Shown: positions 4,379-25,826 of the stretch, one piece after another
Numbering within the stretch: position 1 is the stretch's first letter
Layout of the letters: each line of letters begins with the position of its first letter
Assembly: GCA_029862125.1 (NCBI GenBank)
Contig: JAOTXY010000032.1
Span: 1-34,011, forward strand
Origin: Gammaproteobacteria bacterium
GTDB lineage: Bacteria > Pseudomonadota > Gammaproteobacteria > GCA-001735895
Reading direction: 5' to 3'
DNA: 34,011 nucleotides
Program-made: the position numbers and the translations under genes
The notes under the pieces: model-generated
Told to the model about the DNA's origin: nothing
Database searches by the model: none
What the model saw: the letters and a program-made list of their open reading frames with translations, nothing else

Positions 4379-5800
4379 ATGACAAGCACTGAAACCTATA
4401 ACTATAAAGTAGTTCGGCAATTTTCGATCATGACGATCGTTTGGGGTCTGGTCGGCATGTCGGTGGGTGTTTTGATTGCCGCTCAGCTGGCCTGGCCGGT
4501 GCTCAACTTCGATATCCCGTGGCTTACCTTCAGCCGTCTGCGCCCACTGCACACCAACGCTGTCATCTTTGCTTTCGGTGGTTGTGCCCTGTTTGCAACA
4601 TCTTATTACGTGGTGCAGCATACCTGCCACGTCAAGCTGGCATTCCCGGCACTGGCCGCCTTTACCTTCTGGGGCTGGCAGGCAGTCATTCTGCTCGCAG
4701 CCATCACGTTGCCGCTGGGCATAACCTCCAGCAAGGAATATGCCGAGCTAGAATGGCCGATCGACATACTCATTACGCTGGTTTGGGTCAGTTACGCACT
4801 GGTGTTTTTCGCGACGATTGTCAAGCGCCGCATCCCGCACATTTACGTTGCAAACTGGTTCTTCGGCGCCTTCATCATAACCGTTGCTGTGCTGCACCTG
4901 TTCAATAGCGCCGCATTGCCGGTATCTTTCTGGAAATCTTACTCGGCCTACGCCGGGGTGCAGGATGCGATGGTGCAGTGGTGGTATGGCCACAACGCGG
5001 TTGGCTTTTTCCTGACCGCGGGCTTCCTCGGCATCATGTACTATTTCGTACCCAAGCAGGCAGGACGCCCGGTTTATTCTTACCGCCTCTCGGTGGTGCA
5101 TTTCTGGGCACTGGTGTTCACCTATATCTGGGCTGGACCGCACCACCTGCACTACACTGCGCTTCCGGACTGGGCGCAGTCGCTCGGCATGATCATGTCA
5201 CTGATCCTGCTGGCGCCCTCCTGGGGCGGCATGATCAACGGCATCATGACGCTATCCGGCGCGTGGCATAAACTGCGCACCGACCCGGTACTACGCCTGC
5301 TGATTGTATCAATTTCGTTTTACGGCATGTCGACTTTCGAAGGCCCGATGATGTCGATCAAGACCGTTAACGCCCTGTCGCACTATACCGACTGGACTAT
5401 CGGTCACGTGCATTCCGGTGCACTGGGCTGGGTGGCACTGGTATCGATGGGTGCAATGTATTACCTGATCCCGCGCCTGTTTGGGCGCGAGCTCTACAGT
5501 CTGAAGCTGGTCGAGGTCCATTTCTGGACCGCAACCATTGGCATCGTGCTCTATATCGCGTCCATGTGGGTAGCCGGCATCATGCAGGGCCTGATGTGGC
5601 GGGCAGTCAATGCAGATGGCACGCTGACCTACAGCTTCGTCGAATCGGTACAGGCAATGCACCCCTACTACATCGTGCGTACGCTGGGTGGCGCCTTCTT
5701 CCTGCTCGGTGCGGTGGTGATGGCTTATAACCTGTGGCGCAGCATCTCCGATGCGAAACCCATTGAAGTTGCTATTCCCGAACCGGCAAGTGTCCACTAA
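4379..5800 (+). CDS. ccoN: Cbb3-type cytochrome c oxidase subunit I
   Basis: CcoN is the catalytic heme-copper subunit that reduces oxygen to water with high affinity in the inner membrane. It has 473 residues, normal for the family, with about 12 hydrophobic helices. The expected ligands are visible: H58 (RPLHTN) and H345 or H343 (GHVHSG) for the hemes, and H205 (WWYGHN) plus H255/H256 (GPHH) for CuB. Y249 lies six residues before H255, matching the cross-linked helix VII tyrosine of cbb3 enzymes. GAGGA precedes the ATG. It is followed by ccoO, ccoQ and ccoP in the standard order. Confidence 0.98.
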
Positions 5801-5820
5801 GTATATAGCGAGATAACACC

Positions 5821-6432
5821 ATGGCTTCAGCACACGACAAAGTTGAAAAGAACATCGGCCTGATGATTATCCTGATCATCGGCGTGATATCGGTCGGCGG
5901 TCTGGTTCAGATTATTCCGCTGTTTTTCCAGGATTCCCTGACCGAACCGGTAGCGGGACTAAAACCCTATTCAGCACTGCGTTTGGAGGGACGCGATATC
6001 TACGTTCGTGAATCCTGTTACGTCTGTCACTCACAGATGATTAGACCGTTCAGGGCCGAGACCGAACGTTACGGACATTACTCGGTAGCCGGGGAATTCG
6101 TCTACGACCGACCTTTCCAGTGGGGCTCAAAACGCACCGGCCCAGACCTGCATCGGGTCGGCGGTCTTTACAGCGATGAATGGCATCGCGTGCACATGAT
6201 CAACCCGCGTGACGTCGTGCCAGAATCGATCATGCCCGGATACCCGTGGCTTGCGGATAACATGATCGACGGCAGTAACATCCAGACCAAGATGCAAACC
6301 CTGCGCACCCTTGGCGCGCCTTACACCGATGAGGAAATCGAGGCCGCACCGAAGGCGCTCGAAGGCAAGACCGAACTCGACGCGCTGATTGCCTACCTGC
6401 AGGGCCTTGGCACTGAACTGAAAAGGAGATAG
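5821..6432 (+). CDS. ccoO: Cbb3-type cytochrome c oxidase subunit II, monoheme cytochrome c
   Basis: CcoO is the membrane-anchored monoheme cytochrome c that passes electrons to CcoN. The 203-residue protein has one N-terminal membrane anchor (about residues 12-35) and a periplasmic heme-binding CYVCH motif (C66, C69, H70). The following SQMIRPF is characteristic of CcoO. A downstream Met in the MPGYPW region is the likely axial ligand. It begins 20 bases after ccoN and ends 2 bases before ccoQ. Confidence 0.97.
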
Positions 6433-6434
6433 CC

Positions 6435-6605
6435 ATGACGTTTACCCTGTTTCAATCGATATGGTCCATCGTCGTCATGATTACCTTTCTCGGTATCGTG
6501 GTGTGGGCCTTTAGCAGCAAACGAAAATCCGCATTTGACGAAGCAGCGCGCCTGCCATTCGAGGATGACCAGCTAACCGATAACAACAAACCTTCAGCGG
6601 AGTAG
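6435..6605 (+). CDS. ccoQ: Cbb3-type oxidase small subunit CcoQ
   Basis: This is a 56-residue protein. It has a single membrane helix from about residue 8 to 27 (SIWSIVVMITFLGIVVWAF) followed by a basic stretch (SSKRK). The segment FDEAARLPFEDD is the recognisable CcoQ/FixQ tail. CcoQ stabilises the assembled oxidase. AAAGGAG lies just upstream of the ATG. It lies two bases after ccoO and five bases before ccoP, in the position expected for CcoQ. Confidence 0.93.
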   Translation: MTFTLFQSIWSIVVMITFLGIVVWAFSSKRKSAFDEAARLPFEDDQLTDNNKPSAE

Positions 6606-6609
6606 ATTC

Positions 6610-7515
6610 ATGGCTGATTTTAATAGCGATTTCTGGCACTGGTATATCGCAATTCTCACCGTCCTAAGTATCCTCGCCTGTGTGTGGTTGTTACGCTGGA
6701 TGACTACGGGCCACCAAAAGCAGGATGAAGCCGAGAGCACCGGCCACATCTGGGATGGAGACCTGACCGAGCTCAATAACCCGTTGCCACGCTGGTGGCT
6801 GGGCCTGTTTTATATCACGATCGCTTTTGGTGGCTTTTACCTGTTGCTTTACCCTGGTCTTGGCACCTACGCAGGACTACTGGAATGGACCTCGAAGGGC
6901 GAATACGAACAGGAAGTGGAAGCTGTCGAGACCAGGGTCGGGCCCTTGTTTGCCCGCTACCAGGAAACCCCAATCCTCGACCTGATCAAGGATGAAAACG
7001 CACTCAAGGTCGGCGAGCGCCTGTATCTCAACTACTGTTCGACCTGCCACGGCTCCGATGCTCGTGGCGCCCGGGGCTACCCGAACCTGCGTGACAAAGA
7101 CTGGATATGGGGTGGCGATCCGGAAAGTATCAAGACCACATTAATGAATGGTCGAATCGGCGCGATGCCGGCCTGGGAAGGACCGCTGGGTGGGGAGAGC
7201 GGTGTCGATGAAGTCACCCAGTACGTGCTCAGCCTGTCGGGTCGGGCAACCATTGAAGACCTGGCCGAAAAAGGCAAAGCAAAGTACGAGGTTTTCTGCA
7301 TCGCCTGTCATGGCCCTACCGGTGCCGGCAATACCGCCCTGGGTGCGCCGAACCTGAGCGACGATACCTGGCTTTACGGTGGCTCGATTTCGCGCATCGC
7401 GGAATCGATTGCCAAGGGACGCAATGGGCAAATGCCGGCCCAGGGAGAACGCCTTGGCGACGCTAAGGTACACTTGCTCGCGGCTTACGTTTACGGGTTG
7501 TCGCAAGAAAAGTAA
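6610..7515 (+). CDS. ccoP: Cbb3-type oxidase subunit III, diheme cytochrome c
   Basis: CcoP is the diheme cytochrome c that accepts electrons from soluble cytochromes. The 301-residue protein has two membrane helices (about 10-30 and 62-82, the gammaproteobacterial form). Two heme c motifs follow: CSTCH (C143, C146, H147) and CIACH (C230, C233, H234). The N-terminal cytosolic GHIWDGDLTELNNPLPRWW segment is the CcoP hallmark. The stop codon shares its last A with the ATG of the next gene, showing tight coupling. Confidence 0.97.
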   Translation: MADFNSDFWHWYIAILTVLSILACVWLLRWMTTGHQKQDEAESTGHIWDGDLTELNNPLPRWWLGLFYITIAFGGFYLLLYPGLGTYAGLLEWTSKGEYEQEVEAVETRVGPLFARYQETPILDLIKDENALKVGERLYLNYCSTCHGSDARGARGYPNLRDKDWIWGGDPESIKTTLMNGRIGAMPAWEGPLGGESGVDEVTQYVLSLSGRATIEDLAEKGKAKYEVFCIACHGPTGAGNTALGAPNLSDDTWLYGGSISRIAESIAKGRNGQMPAQGERLGDAKVHLLAAYVYGLSQEK

Positions 7516-20633: not shown

Positions 20634-21104
20634 TTATCCGCACAGTTGTGGACTTCCCCCTTCACTGGCATTTTTGCCATATACCATGCGCTCTATTCCG
20701 GCCCAGTAGGCTGCAGCCTCACACATTGGGCAAGCTGGTGAAGATGAATACAGTGTGCAGCGACTGAGATCGCGCGAATTGAGTCGGCGCGCTGCATCCC
20801 GAATGGCTTCCATCTCGGCGTGAGCGGTAGGATCCTTATTGATTATTACAAGACTCGGCGATTGGCCAACGATTTTGCCATCGCGAACCACAACCGCACC
20901 ATAACCCTGGTCACCGCTCTCGATAGCCCGTTGTCGCATGCTAATCGCACGTGCCATGAATGAAGTATCATCGCTAACTTCGGGCTGTTCGATTGTCCCG
21001 GTTTCGCTAATGCCCGCCTTTCCTTCACGAGTGGCGAACAACGGAAAAACAGCTGCCATTGCCAGCACCAGTGCCCTTCTTTTGACCTGTAGTTGTTTAA
21101 CCAT
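20634..21104 (-). CDS. Guanine/cytosine-deaminase-like protein with export signal
   Basis: The 156-residue zinc deaminase has H95-A-E97 (DPTAHAEMEAIRDAARRL) and C125/C128 in SSPACPMC, with AAYWAGI after them. The wording is closest to guanine deaminase (GuaD type). The usual C-terminal part is short. Unusually, the first 30 residues form a signal-like segment: KRR at 8-10, a hydrophobic stretch (ALVLAMAAVFPLFA) and a small-residue region. The twin arginine suggests Tat export of a folded zinc enzyme, but Sec is possible. It would act in the periplasm, which is not expected of this family. Confidence 0.8.
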   Translation of the reverse strand: MVKQLQVKRRALVLAMAAVFPLFATREGKAGISETGTIEQPEVSDDTSFMARAISMRQRAIESGDQGYGAVVVRDGKIVGQSPSLVIINKDPTAHAEMEAIRDAARRLNSRDLSRCTLYSSSPACPMCEAAAYWAGIERMVYGKNASEGGSPQLCG

Positions 21105-21222: not shown

Positions 21223-21387
21223 ATGGGCGAATGTCCGGTATGTGCGGCCGAAGTCGAAGTGGCCAAAGACGCTATATCTGGCGAGTTACTGGTCTGCGAG
21301 GACTGCGGCGCCGAACTCGAACTGATCAAAACCGTTCCGGTTGAACTGGCTGAAGCGCCATCGGCCGAAGAGGACTGGGGCCAGTGA
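21223..21387 (+). CDS. lysW: Amino-group carrier protein LysW-like, C-terminal Gln
   Basis: The 54-residue carrier protein protects the alpha-amino group of an amino acid during conversion of its side chain. A zinc ribbon is formed by C4/C7 (CPVC) and C25/C28 (CEDC), followed by an acidic tail ending EDWGQ. The Thermus LysW is the same length and ends EDWGE, where the gamma-carboxyl of Glu54 is the attachment point. Here codon 54 is CAG (Gln), so the carboxyl is an amide and must be deamidated or exchanged before normal ligation. GGGGA precedes the ATG. The stop overlaps the lysX GTG start by 4 bases. The gene is too short for simple ORF cut-offs. Confidence 0.95.
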
Positions 21388-22220
21388 AAATCGGCCTGCT
21401 GCATTCGCTGATTCGAAAAGAAGAAAAACTTCTGCTCGAGGCGTTTCATAAAGCCGGTGTGGAACCGATCATGATCGACGACCGCAAGTTGATCATGGAT
21501 TTTCACAGTGCCCCCGATATTGACATCCTGGTCGAGCGTTCTATCAATCACTCACGCGCACTGCACGCATTGCGGCTGTTCGAAAGCGCCGGGGTATGTT
21601 GTGTCAACTCGCACAAGGTCGCCCAGATCTGCGGTGACAAGCTGCTGACCACCGCCGCGCTGAAGGATCATGGTATCGCACAACCCGCAAGCAGAGTCGC
21701 ATTTACCGAGGAATCGGCGCTCGCCGCGATCGAGGAACTGGGTTACCCGGTGGTTTTGAAACCGGCGGTCGGCTCCTGGGGTAGATTGCTTTCCAAGATC
21801 AACGACCGCGATGCCGCCGAGACGGTACTCGAGCACAAGACCGTGCTCGGCAGCTATCACCACTCGATTTTTTACATCCAGCAATATATCGACAAGCAGG
21901 GTCGCGATATTCGCAGTTTCGTGGTCGGCGATGATTGCATTGCCGCCATTTACCGCAGCTCCGATCACTGGATCACCAACACCGCACGGGGCGCCCAGGC
22001 GAGTAAGTGCGAAGTGACTGCCGAGGTCGCCGAAATTTCGCTGGCAGCGGCAAAAGCAGTTGGCGGCGGAATTGTCGCCGTCGATTTGTTCGAAAGTGAC
22101 GAAGGTTTGCTGGTCAACGAAGTCAACTACACGATGGAGTTTCGCAACAGTATCGATACCACGGGAATCGATATTCCCCAGGTAGTTGCAAACTATGTCA
22201 TCGCCCTCGTAAACCAATGA
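21384..22220 (+). CDS. lysX: LysX-like ATP-grasp ligase for LysW
   Basis: This ATP-grasp ligase joins the carrier C-terminus to the amino group of an acidic amino acid (alpha-aminoadipate or glutamate) at the cost of ATP. The 278-residue product starts with GTG. It has the LysX core: [14 protein letters not shown] (nucleotide binding), [10 protein letters not shown], and the metal and substrate region [14 protein letters not shown], very close to the Thermus enzyme. The TMEF/RNSI wording is shared by LysX and does not by itself separate LysX from ArgX-type specificity. It is coupled to lysW by the GTGA overlap and to lysY by ATGA. Confidence 0.93.
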
Positions 22221-23239
22221 TCAAGGTCTCGATTGTCGGCGCCTCGGGTTACACCGGTGGCGATTTACTACGCATCTTGTTATTCCATCCGCAGGTCGAA
22301 ATTCAACAGGTTACCTCGGAGCGAAATGCAGGCAGGCTGGTTTCCAGTGTGCACCCCAACTTGCGCAAAATCTGCCGGCATAAATTTGTTCCAATCTCGG
22401 AACTCGAGCCCTGCGACGTGTTGTTCCTGGGATTACCGCATGGACAAATGATGAATCGCCTGGACGACTTTGAAGAACTGGCCGAAACCCTGATCGATTT
22501 ATCCGCCGACTTCCGGCTGCGCGACAGCGACACTTTCGAAAACTGGTATGGAAAACCGCACAGCTGCCCGCAAAAACTCGCCGAATTTGTCTACGGCATT
22601 CCTGAGCTTCACCGCGCGGAAATGAAAACTGCGAAAAGGATCTCGGGTGCCGGTTGTAACGCTACCGCGACCATTCTCGCGCTGTATCCGCTTTACCAGG
22701 CCGGCCTTGTCGAATCCGCCGTTGTCGAGGTAAAAGCCGGTTCCAGCCAGGGTGGCAATGCAGTCAGCGAAGGCAGCCATCACCCGGAACGCAGTGGCGC
22801 GGTGCGCTCTTATAAACCGACCGCTCATCGTCACCTCGGCGAAATCCAGCAGGAACTGGGGGCAGAAAATATTCATTTCTCGGCGACCTCGATCGAAATG
22901 GTGCGCGGGATCCTGGCAACCTGTCATGTATTCCTGAACCGGGACCTGGAAGAAAAAGATATCTGGAAACTCTATCGCAGTGCCTACGGCAACGAACCCT
23001 TTATCCGCATCGTCAAGGAACGTAGTGGCATCCATCGCTACCCGGAGCCGAAGATTCTCGCTGGCAGTAATTACTGTGATATCGGCTTCGAGCGCGACCC
23101 GCAGAGCAATCGGCTGGTTGTCATCAGCGCATTGGACAACCTCATGAAAGGAGCCGCCGGCCAGGCGGTACAGGCATTCAATATCGCGCAGGGATTCGAC
23201 GAAACCACGGGACTCGAATTCCCTGGATTGCACCCCTGA
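22217..23239 (+). CDS. lysY: LysY/ArgC-like N-acyl-gamma-phosphate reductase
   Basis: This NADPH-dependent reductase turns the carrier-bound acyl phosphate into the semialdehyde. The 340-residue product has an N-terminal Rossmann motif ([17 protein letters not shown]) and catalytic C147 in [10 protein letters not shown]. The [15 protein letters not shown] region replaces typical ArgC wording and is the LysY style, consistent with a protein-bound substrate. It overlaps lysX by four bases (ATGA) and lies 12 bases before the amidohydrolase gene. Confidence 0.94.
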
Positions 23240-23251
23240 TTCTGCGCCGGT

Positions 23252-23887
23252 ATGTGTCGCATTCTCTATGCCCGGGCCGAGAAGCAATTTCAGATTTCGG
23301 AATTGCTCGCACCCTTCGCCGAGCTCTCACGCGATAGCCGGGAGTTTCAGGGTCACGGCTGGGGCTGCGCCTGGCGCGAAGACGACGGCTGGCGCCAGTA
23401 TCACGATATCCGCCCGATCTGGGAAGATAACCTGGGGCAATTTGGGCACACTCAGCTGTTACTGGTACATGCGCGTAGCGCGTTTCGTGATGAGGGCATC
23501 GTCATCGAAAACAATATGCCCTTCTCCGACGGTGAGTCGATTTTCATCTTCAATGGTGAGTTGCGTGGGGTGCGAATCAAATCGGAAGGTCGTATCGGTG
23601 CCGAAAAAATCTACAACTACATTCGTCGCTTCGACAAGGGCGATAAATGCGCAGCCACCGACAAGGCAGTTGAAATCATCAAGAAACGCAGTGCCTACGT
23701 GCGCGCGATGAATATTATTCTTTCAGACGGGAAGCAGTCCTGCCTGTCGACCAGTTACAGCGAGGATCCGGAATACTTTCGAATGCACCAGAAGCGTCAC
23801 CAGGATCTGCATCTGGTATGCTCGCAACCGTTCGCTGGAGACAGCGACTGGTCCATAATCGCTAACAACACGACGATCGAATTATGA
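23252..23887 (+). CDS. Class II glutamine amidotransferase-like Ntn hydrolase inside the lysW operon
   Basis: The 211-residue single-domain protein resembles YafJ/EgtC/Dug3-type class II amidotransferases. Cys2 becomes the N-terminal nucleophile after removal of Met1. HGWG (35-38), R75 in VHARSA, NNMPF (87-91) and N101-G102 in FNGEL form the expected glutamine pocket and oxyanion site. No synthase or ligase domain is attached. EgtC and Dug3 show that this fold can cleave gamma-glutamyl amides other than glutamine. It sits between lysY and lysZ, and its stop overlaps the lysZ ATG, so it is an operon member. Likely roles are deamidating Gln54 of the carrier or hydrolysing the gamma-glutamyl bond that releases the finished product. 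Both are inference. Confidence 0.88.
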   Translation: MCRILYARAEKQFQISELLAPFAELSRDSREFQGHGWGCAWREDDGWRQYHDIRPIWEDNLGQFGHTQLLLVHARSAFRDEGIVIENNMPFSDGESIFIFNGELRGVRIKSEGRIGAEKIYNYIRRFDKGDKCAATDKAVEIIKKRSAYVRAMNIILSDGKQSCLSTSYSEDPEYFRMHQKRHQDLHLVCSQPFAGDSDWSIIANNTTIEL

Positions 23888-24675
23888 TGCTGATAAAAAT
23901 CGGTGGCGGTGAGCAAATCAACCTCGAAGCCGCAATCGCAGATCTGGCGACACTCGAGCAGCCATTTGTTATCGTGCATGGGGCCAACGTGTTACGTGAT
24001 CAGCTGGTGCAACAACTGGGCAAGGAAAAGACGGTGCTGACCTCGATTTCTGGCTACGCCAGCGTTTTATCCGACCAGGATGCAATCGATGTCATCATGA
24101 TGAGTTATTCCGGCCTGCGTAACAAGCAGATCGTTGAACTGTGCCAACGCAATAACATCAACGCCGTCGGTCTGACCGGTCTCGACGGTCGCCTGGTGCA
24201 GGGAGAACGCAACAAGGGCATCCGCGTGCGTGAAAACGGTAAAACCCTGATCAAAAGGGATCTCTCGGGTAAACCGCGCTCCATTAACAGCCAGCTATTG
24301 ATGCTGCTACTGGATAACGGTTACTGCCCGGTGCTGACAATCCCCATCGTCGACGAGAACGGCTTTGCGATAAACTCCGAGAACGACGACATCGTTGTCC
24401 AGATAGCGAGTGCACTTGATATCGATACGGTGATTCAGTTGATCGAAGCGCCCGGGTTTCTCGATGATCCCGCTGACGAAACCTCGCTGGTAAACAGCAT
24501 GAGTCTCAGTGAGTTAGAGCATCGTGAAGCGAGCGTCGAAGGACGAATCAAACGCAAACTACTCGCGCTGACGCGACTTTGCCAGGGCGGCAAAACCCGG
24601 GTCATCATCGCCGATGGCCGCTGCGAACAACCCATTATCAGCGCACTCGATGGCGCCGGGACACATATCTCATGA
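23884..24675 (+). CDS. lysZ: LysZ-like carrier-bound amino acid kinase
   Basis: This amino-acid kinase family member phosphorylates the side-chain carboxyl of the carrier-bound substrate. The 263-residue product starts MMLIKIGGGE, a kinase lysine with glycine-rich loop. VHGAN, GLTGLDGRL and NSENDD match the ArgB/LysZ pattern, and KRKLLALTRLCQGG follows near the C-terminus. A second ATG at 23887 is possible. It overlaps the amidohydrolase gene and lysJ by four bases at each end (ATGA). Confidence 0.92.
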   Translation: MMLIKIGGGEQINLEAAIADLATLEQPFVIVHGANVLRDQLVQQLGKEKTVLTSISGYASVLSDQDAIDVIMMSYSGLRNKQIVELCQRNNINAVGLTGLDGRLVQGERNKGIRVRENGKTLIKRDLSGKPRSINSQLLMLLLDNGYCPVLTIPIVDENGFAINSENDDIVVQIASALDIDTVIQLIEAPGFLDDPADETSLVNSMSLSELEHREASVEGRIKRKLLALTRLCQGGKTRVIIADGRCEQPIISALDGAGTHIS

Positions 24676-25826
24676 CCGATTACAAGGCTCTCGAACACGA
24701 ATATGGCGTGCCGTTACAGGCAAAACGCGACCTGGTTGCGGTCCGCGGAAACGGAGCCTTGCTTTACGACGAGCAGGATCGGGAGTATATCGATTGCGCC
24801 GCCGGAATCGGGGTCGCTTCACTCGGGCATTGCCATCCAAAACTGGTCGCCGCAATCAAGCAACAGGCCGAAACCCTGATTACCTGCCCCAACATCATGT
24901 ACAACGACGTGCGCTCGAAACTACTCAAAAAGCTGGTTGAGGTAAGCCCCGAGAGCCTGACTCGCGCCTACTTATGCAACTCGGGCGCCGAGGCGATCGA
25001 GGCCGCACTCAAGTTCGCGCGCCTGCACACCGGGCGGACTAACTTTGTCACCGCGATGCGGGGCTTTCACGGTCGCACCATGGGTGCGGTCAGTGCCACT
25101 TACACACCAAAATATCGCGAAGCATTTCAGCCGCTGATTCCCGGCTTCGACTACGTACCCTTCAATAAGATCGAAAAGCTCGATGCCGCGGTGACCGACA
25201 ATACCGCGGCCGTCATGTTTGAGCTGGTGCAGGGTGAAGGCGGCGTCAATCCGATCCAGGCCGACTATCTCGCGGCCGTGCGCAAGCTCTGCTCCGAACG
25301 TGGTGTGTTATTGATTATCGATGAAATCCAGACCGGTTTCTGTCGAACCGGGAGATTCTTTGCCTGTGATCATTTCGACCTGCAGCCTGACATCATGTGC
25401 GTGGCCAAGGCAATAGGCGGCGGCGTGCCCGTCGGCGCGACGCTGCTTAATGCCGACATTAATATCGAGCCGGGACTACATGGTACGACATTCGGCGGTA
25501 ACCCGCTGGCCTGCGCTGCGGCACTAGCGGCCATTGACGTCTATCAAACCGATAACCTGGCACAACGGGCGGCGGAACTGGGTGATTATTTCGAACAACA
25601 GTTAAACGTTGCGGACCTTCCCCAGGTTCGGTCGTTGCGCCGACTCGGCTTGATGATTGGTATCGAGCTCAAGCAAAAGGTACAGGACAAGCTGGCGGAA
25701 TTACTCGAAAATCGTATCATCGCGCTGCCGGCCGGCCCTAACGTGATTCGCATGCTGCCGCCGTTAATCATCGAGAAAGAACAGATCGATCGGGTCGTCA
25801 AGACCTTACGCGAGCTTTTGGCTTAA
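24672..25826 (+). CDS. lysJ: LysJ/ArgD-like PLP aminotransferase
   Basis: This class III aminotransferase aminates the carrier-bound semialdehyde, with glutamate as the usual donor. The 384-residue product has NSGAEA (PLP phosphate binding, about 103-108), GFHGRT, D217 in [10 protein letters not shown] and PLP lysine K246 in VAKAIGGG. The ATG at 24672, in a 4-base overlap with lysZ, is preferred over upstream in-frame starts. It is the last gene of the operon; pckA follows after 185 bases. No lysK homologue follows, so the usual final deacylase is missing here. Confidence 0.94.

Follow-up and report, generated by a model that had tools for sequence, protein, structure and literature searches.

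A class II amidotransferase-like protein as the probable product-release enzyme of LysW operons without LysK

The LysW pathway, its hydrolase LysK and the EgtC fold are already known. LysK ([LysW]-lysine/ornithine hydrolase, M20, NF003367/TIGR01902) works by a zinc mechanism; EgtC is the gamma-glutamyl amidohydrolase of ergothioneine biosynthesis (PDB 4ZFJ/4ZFK/4ZFL, TIGR03442). We analysed a stretch of 34,011 nt (the window) from a Gammaproteobacteria bacterium (contig JAOTXY010000032.1, assembly GCA_029862125.1), in which a LysW operon includes a gene (23252..23887) for a free-standing class II glutamine amidotransferase-like protein, here termed GAT. Judged from sequence comparison, GAT is probably a hydrolase of LysW-gamma-glutamyl amides that takes the place of LysK across a large lineage of LysW operons. 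Its proposed reaction and its place in the pathway are those of LysK. The two proteins belong to different families, with a cysteine nucleophile proposed for GAT in place of the zinc mechanism (non-orthologous replacement), and operons carry either of the two, with both present in none of 151 loci. EgtC has the closest fold, yet shares only 21% identity with GAT and keeps an Asp (VDSA) where GAT has Gly116; GAT, unlike EgtC, is tied to LysW operons.

Two further systems invite comparison. Passages of PMC8223512 report that Dop deamidates the C-terminal Gln of Pup and cleaves the isopeptide bond, call these two reactions chemically equivalent, and describe Dop as a homologue of a glutamyl-amine ligase. 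In that system the ligase-related Dop acts on a tag for degradation, whereas the partners here are a biosynthetic carrier and an enzyme of the N-terminal nucleophile (Ntn) fold; because of these differences, any shared logic would be convergent. The LysWXZYJ and Hcs locus of Caldithrix abyssi (Cabys_3146-3153) was compared by description only. The passages on it name neither a LysK in the locus nor an amidotransferase-like gene, and passages of the Caldithrix genome paper state that the lysine pathway needs further investigation. Our own set held two Calditrichota loci (L100 and L148). A literature search, with subscription journals mostly outside its scope, found no paper joining LysW with a glutamine amidotransferase or a C-terminal Gln, and none on Ignavibacterium with LysW. 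What would be new is a LysW-mediated biosynthesis that uses a non-orthologous release enzyme and a carrier terminus at which Glu and Gln are interchangeable.

A GAT that releases the product should exclude LysK, and a Gln54 at the carrier end that depends on GAT should be missing from LysK-type operons. LysW loci were gathered irrespective of GAT; 19 of 345 Bacteroidota, 124 of 297 Acidobacteriota and 41 of 259 Gemmatimonadota genomes scored over the cut-off. From these, 112 stretches were fetched, best scores first (Bacteroidota 12, Acidobacteriota 66, Gemmatimonadota 34), weaker Acidobacteriota places being left out and the 7 other Bacteroidota places lying in genomes already in the set as GAT loci. 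Deinococcus and Streptomyces plasmid loci were added, as were the best 80 of 231 relatives from a scan of genome contigs with the GAT alignment. Loci were annotated with profiles built in this analysis, and lysJ was named from clusters and profiles. After removal of three duplicates (near-copies were kept), the counted set comprised 151 distinct loci having lysX or GAT. Before counting, 41 loci had been set aside in which a LysW-like zinc ribbon had neither lysX nor GAT beside it in the stretch. Most of these have no DWG[EQ] end and look like another family, but L220 ends in DWGE and has GAT elsewhere in its genome. In Acidobacteriota, L255, L257, L263, L265-L280 and others encode short zinc ribbons over the PF21344 cut-off with acidic ends, no DWGE and no LysX in the stretch, and PF21344 seems to catch another family besides LysW.

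GAT without LysK was found in 120 of the 151 loci and LysK without GAT in 26; none had both and five had neither. Among the five, the contig ends just past lysX or argC in L192, L225 and L254, and L202 has GAT elsewhere in its genome. Their LysW proteins end in Glu (3) or Gln (2). The Deinococcus plasmid operon reads lysW-lysX-argC-lysZ-lysJ-lysK and has no GAT. In the Streptomyces plasmid locus (L184, 8009-20750), LysW is clustered with LysX, argC, an M20 hydrolase and a [LysW] kinase, together with transketolase-like genes and a protein that has an adenylation domain; the cluster resembles LysW-based natural-product pathways.

The exclusion extended to whole genomes. The LysK model TIGR01902 exceeded its cut-off of 163.1 in none of 50 GAT genomes searched (best score 115.9), and all eight LysK proteins from LysK-type loci used as positive control scored 254.7-329.8. 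Conversely, GAT was absent from all 25 LysK-type genomes searched, a search that left out the genomes behind two plasmid LysK loci, but turned up in 2 of the 4 searched genomes that have a LysW locus with neither gene. A LysK elsewhere in the window genome was ruled out: the best match reached only 68.8 bits and is a DapE. From this mutual exclusion in loci and genomes, GAT most likely takes over the release role of LysK. The first-pass annotation of the window had listed release in place of LysK among three roles, and had proposed the co-occurrence comparison carried out here; its reservation that a normal lysK might lie elsewhere in the genome was not borne out.

The window operon is compact, with the order lysW-lysX-argC-GAT-lysZ-lysJ and every gene on the + strand:

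21223..21387, + strand: lysW, amino-group carrier protein of 54 aa with the C-terminus EEDWGQ (PF21344 57.2 bits, cut-off 27)
21382-21384, + strand: Gln54 codon of lysW, CAG, followed by the stop TGA
21384..22220, + strand: lysX/argX, ATP-grasp ligase loading the carrier, GTG start, GSWGR intact (TIGR02144 339.6 bits, cut-off 275.6)
22217..23239, + strand: argC/lysY, acyl-phosphate reductase (TIGR01850 396.1 bits, cut-off 233.6)
23252..23887, + strand: GAT, class II amidotransferase-fold Ntn hydrolase of 211 aa, proposed LysW-gamma-glutamyl amide hydrolase for product release and Gln54 deamidation (open reading frame, fold model, LysK mutual exclusion)
23884..24675, + strand: lysZ, [LysW]-amino acid kinase (NF010659, [LysW]-aminoadipate kinase, 246.4 bits, cut-off 223)
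24672..25826, + strand: lysJ/argD, class III aminotransferase, last operon gene, ATG at 24672 (TIGR00707 450.5 bits for 24666-25823, cut-off 410.05)

Neighbouring genes overlap by 4 nt, through GTGA at lysW/lysX and ATGA at lysX/argC, GAT/lysZ and lysZ/lysJ; the argC-GAT junction, with a gap of 12 nt, is the only one without an overlap. The position of GAT between lysY and lysZ, as first annotated, was thus verified. No lysK lies within the window operon and none follows lysJ. The window LysW is the only PF21344 match in its genome at E 0.001. It has the zinc-ribbon domain but ends in EDWGQ instead of EDWGE, and it falls below two NCBIfam LysW models (TIGR01206, 51.9 against 53.2 bits; NF041070, 59.8 against 75 bits). 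A Glu at this terminus could arise only through Gln54 deamidation. Upstream of lysW, at 20634-21104 on the - strand, lies a gene for a cytidine-deaminase-fold protein whose N-terminal extension resembles a signal peptide; relatives of it are present in 10 clustered loci.

Among the 120 GAT loci, LysW ends in Glu in 67 and in Gln in 34, and lysW was not found in 19, mostly at contig ends; an early-stage tally of 62 rows had given 35 Glu and 27 Gln. All 26 LysK loci encode Glu, as do the solved LysW chains 3wwl, 5k2m and 3vpb. Fisher's test, with kinship ignored, gave 1.2e-4. GAT therefore does not require Gln, yet among loci typed by LysK or GAT, Gln carriers were seen only with GAT. The idea that GAT exists because of Gln54 is ruled out by the 67 Glu carriers among the 101 GAT loci with lysW found. 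GAT might still act as a deamidase and nothing else, maturing Gln54 in the manner of Dop while an ArgE/DapE-type or other amidase releases the product. We regard this as very unlikely. It would account for the restriction of Gln-ended LysW to GAT-type operons (34/101 against 0/26), LysX needs a carboxylate and so some enzyme must deamidate Gln54, and GAT genomes do contain M20 enzymes under the LysK cut-off. A pure deamidase, however, would have no work in the 67 loci that already encode Glu54 (23 of 26 GAT loci in the Gemmatimonadota sample), and the lack of any LysK over the cut-off in the 50 genomes searched would be left unexplained. Deamidation of Gln54, which the first-pass annotation ranked with direct amide exchange as the most attractive role, is supported by the data as a second use of the same activity but not as the reason for the gene; the data place release first. 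The terminal-Glu carriers of relatives count against deamidation or exchange as the main role, and leave release unaffected.

A proofreading or recycling hydrolase that clears wrongly charged LysW, with product release left to another enzyme, would suit the fixed operon place and the chemistry of GAT. Such an enzyme should sometimes accompany LysK; the 151 loci include no such case, LysK-type operons manage without GAT and GAT-type operons without LysK, so that we give this explanation only a slim chance. The probability is smaller still that GAT replaces the amide of Gln54 directly with the amine of the amino acid to be loaded, bypassing LysX and ATP. Ntn glutaminases can hand a gamma-glutamyl thioester to other nucleophiles, and a Gln carrier could readily donate its acyl group. 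Against such transamidation, LysX with an intact GSWGR motif was present in 34/34 Gln-type and 67/67 Glu-type GAT loci, and Glu carriers could not use the route at all. The earlier proposal of direct exchange without LysX is thus disfavoured.

The GAT protein itself fits the release function. It is a single domain of 211 aa without a synthase part, as originally described, and no ammonia-using synthase was found among the operon partners named by family models. The residues of interest are:

23255..23257, + strand: Cys2 codon, proposed catalytic nucleophile once Met1 is removed (Cys in 120/120 relatives)
23474..23476, + strand: Arg75 codon (Arg in 120/120 relatives)
23552..23557, + strand: Asn101-Gly102 codons (each kept in 120/120 relatives)
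23597..23599, + strand: Gly116 codon, in the position occupied in relatives by an Asp that binds glutamine through its free alpha-amino group (Gly in 119/119 with a residue there)

The first-pass annotation had named Cys2, Arg75 and Asn101-Gly102, all of which proved invariant. We take Arg75 to be the equivalent of the Arg that holds the glutamine alpha-carboxylate, a role known from GlmS and PurF structures, and Asn101-Gly102 to be the oxyanion hole. The N-terminal Cys, the Arg with Asn-Gly, and the fold (model pLDDT 89.9, EgtC closest) place GAT among class II glutamine amidotransferases and Ntn hydrolases. The Asp of the (S/T)D(S/T)E motif expected of amidotransferases that use free glutamine is missing from GAT. 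It was present in 7/7 counted references (GlmS, PurF, AsnB, YafJ and three plasmid-borne relatives) and in EgtC; an eighth reference, GltB, was left uncounted because the alignment at this site was not clean. The replacement of Asp by Gly116 fits a substrate whose alpha-nitrogen takes part in a peptide bond. EgtC, GlmS and PurF act on small molecules, and this kinship favours free glutamine or another small gamma-glutamyl compound as the GAT substrate, with an incidental operon place, but the Gly in 119/119 and the linkage of GAT to LysW-operon genes in at least six phyla make this most improbable. The window GAT scored 44.9 bits with the EgtC model TIGR03442 (two other GATs 40.7 and 39.8), far under the cut-off of 218.65, which rules out that GAT is EgtC. 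At E 0.01 the model was matched by 26/26 diverse GAT members (best E 5.3e-14). At E 0.001, the window GAT had no Pfam match, and GAT matched no M20 model.

In the mechanism we propose, which covers both GAT reactions, their order and the product, LysX would link Glu or alpha-aminoadipate, through its amino group, to the last carrier residue at the gamma-carboxyl, and LysZ, ArgC/LysY and LysJ would convert the adduct to LysW-gamma-Glu-ornithine or -lysine. The N-terminal Cys2 of GAT would then attack the gamma-carbonyl, the diamino acid would leave, and water would free Glu54. On a Gln54 carrier, the same attack would expel ammonia and yield Glu54, to be unloaded later by the same enzyme. Chemically, removal of ammonia from Gln54 equals removal of the product amine, and deamidation would thus be a second use of GAT; this would explain why Gln is found only with GAT. 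Since Gln-ended carriers were found only among GAT users, the pattern suggests that one enzyme both activates and unloads the carrier. A stronger version, which we put forward tentatively and think rather doubtful, is that selection maintains Gln54 as a pro-form on which LysX cannot act before GAT strips the amide, so that charging would occur only in cells making the release enzyme. The Pup/Dop logic would then have been invented a second time, independently, for amino-acid biosynthesis, and the roughly fifteen Glu/Gln switches counted by parsimony in five phyla would be natural replicates.

In the LysX tree, GAT-type and LysK-type loci were split by one branch with a support of 99. By parsimony, changes in the last carrier residue number at least 15 on the LysX tree and at least 16 on the GAT tree, all of them on the GAT side, because no LysK locus has Gln. 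Were the rates per branch length the same throughout, the LysK side should show 5.1 changes, and the chance of none is ~0.006 (a rough Poisson estimate with the long Streptomyces branch excluded).

Several points weigh against this interpretation. The argC tree needs two GAT/LysK changes rather than one. The trees are weakly resolved: counting well-supported branches alone, no more than 2 Glu/Gln changes are forced on the GAT tree, and the LysX tree gives just 5 independent pairs. With a single GAT/LysK change on the LysX tree, a test of Gln against GAT by independent pairs has no power. LysK-type loci are few, 26 in all, and 22 of them come from Acidobacteriota. For 50 of the 80 scanned GAT loci the genome was searched for LysK, most of these genomes being of unestablished completeness. 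L234 shows neither gene although 1.7 kb lie behind argC, and the genomes of L234 and L254, which the LysK search did not cover, had no GAT. L106, L117, L130 and L140 had no detected lysW despite several kb upstream in view. Gln is uniform in the genus of the window, which pure neutrality does not explain; with a neutral residue and a useful pro-form both considered, this uniformity hints at selection. Finally, the window genome (G000, contigs C21, C71 and C26) also encodes a DapE, a canonical ArgB (253 bits) and an ArgA-like protein (a name given by inference to a 438-aa frame, one half of which is a kinase). Canonical ArgB was over the cut-off in 30/31 genus genomes, whether the operon was present or not. 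The LysW operon is thus not the sole arginine/lysine route of the host, and it may provide additional ornithine or lysine, or a different diamino acid.

GAT was found in 21/31 genomes of the genus and in 0/10 genomes of other genera in the family. A specific LysX (E below 1e-150) was present in 17 of 24 genus genomes searched with LysX, and 16 of these 17 carry GAT; in the seventeenth (G025), the contig stops 653 bases behind lysX. GAT was absent from all 7 genus genomes without a specific LysX. The Gln-ended LysW reported at first annotation recurred throughout the genus: all LysW in view, 18 full (window included) and 1 partial, end in Gln, and 2 of 20 fetched loci stop before lysW. This recurrence indicates that GAT and Gln54 are not a product of chance or of errors in metagenome-assembled genomes. 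A sequencing error or private oddity as the origin of Gln54 is countered by these 18 full proteins and by 18 further distinct GAT loci outside the genus that end in Gln.

LysW was rare, scoring over the cut-off in 4 of 274 genomes of the sampled class and in 2 of 398 of the sampled phylum, the second of these 2 inside a 332-aa frame. The two class-sample LysW loci from outside the family belong to a single other genus and have the same GAT operon with a Glu-ended LysW. Titles among the best 80 of the 231 GAT relatives include Gammaproteobacteria, Ignavibacteria and other Bacteroidetes, Calditrichota, Gemmatimonadota, Holophagae, KSB1, Phycisphaerales and others; lysW was found at 61 of these 80 loci. 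All 120 distinct GAT loci of the final set have argC or lysZ in the stretch, and GAT is evidently a recurrent LysW-operon gene. A homocitrate-synthase-like gene is present in 33 of the 120, as a rule between lysW and lysX; one example scored 334.3 bits against a homocitrate model cut-off of 413.55. The LysX stretch NYTME occurs in 121/142 LysX proteins, alike in loci with and without this gene, so that NYTME does not distinguish Glu from aminoadipate as substrate.

Some GAT-type loci depart from the common layout. LysZ and LysJ are seemingly fused into one open reading frame of ~700 aa in two Gemmatimonadota loci (L216, 3268-5394; L227, 880-2979). L101 has tandem LysX genes (5236-6105 and 6087-6947), perhaps one for glutamate and one for aminoadipate. 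In the gammaproteobacterial L117, L125, L132 and L146, the fetched stretch has no lysZ and lysJ behind argC-GAT (in L146 it runs on for just ~2.4 kb); these genes may sit elsewhere or be replaced.

If GAT is the release enzyme, it would fill the missing release step in the LysW pathways of Ignavibacteria, Calditrichota, Gemmatimonadota, some Acidobacteriota and many Gammaproteobacteria, none of whose genomes, where searched, had a LysK over the cut-off. A gene family now named at most a weak EgtC or class II amidotransferase relative would gain a function. Annotation would benefit as well, since two NCBIfam LysW models miss the Gln-ended carrier of the window. The non-orthologous replacement seemingly altered which C-terminal residue the carrier may have, and makes the equivalence of Glu and Gln directly testable.
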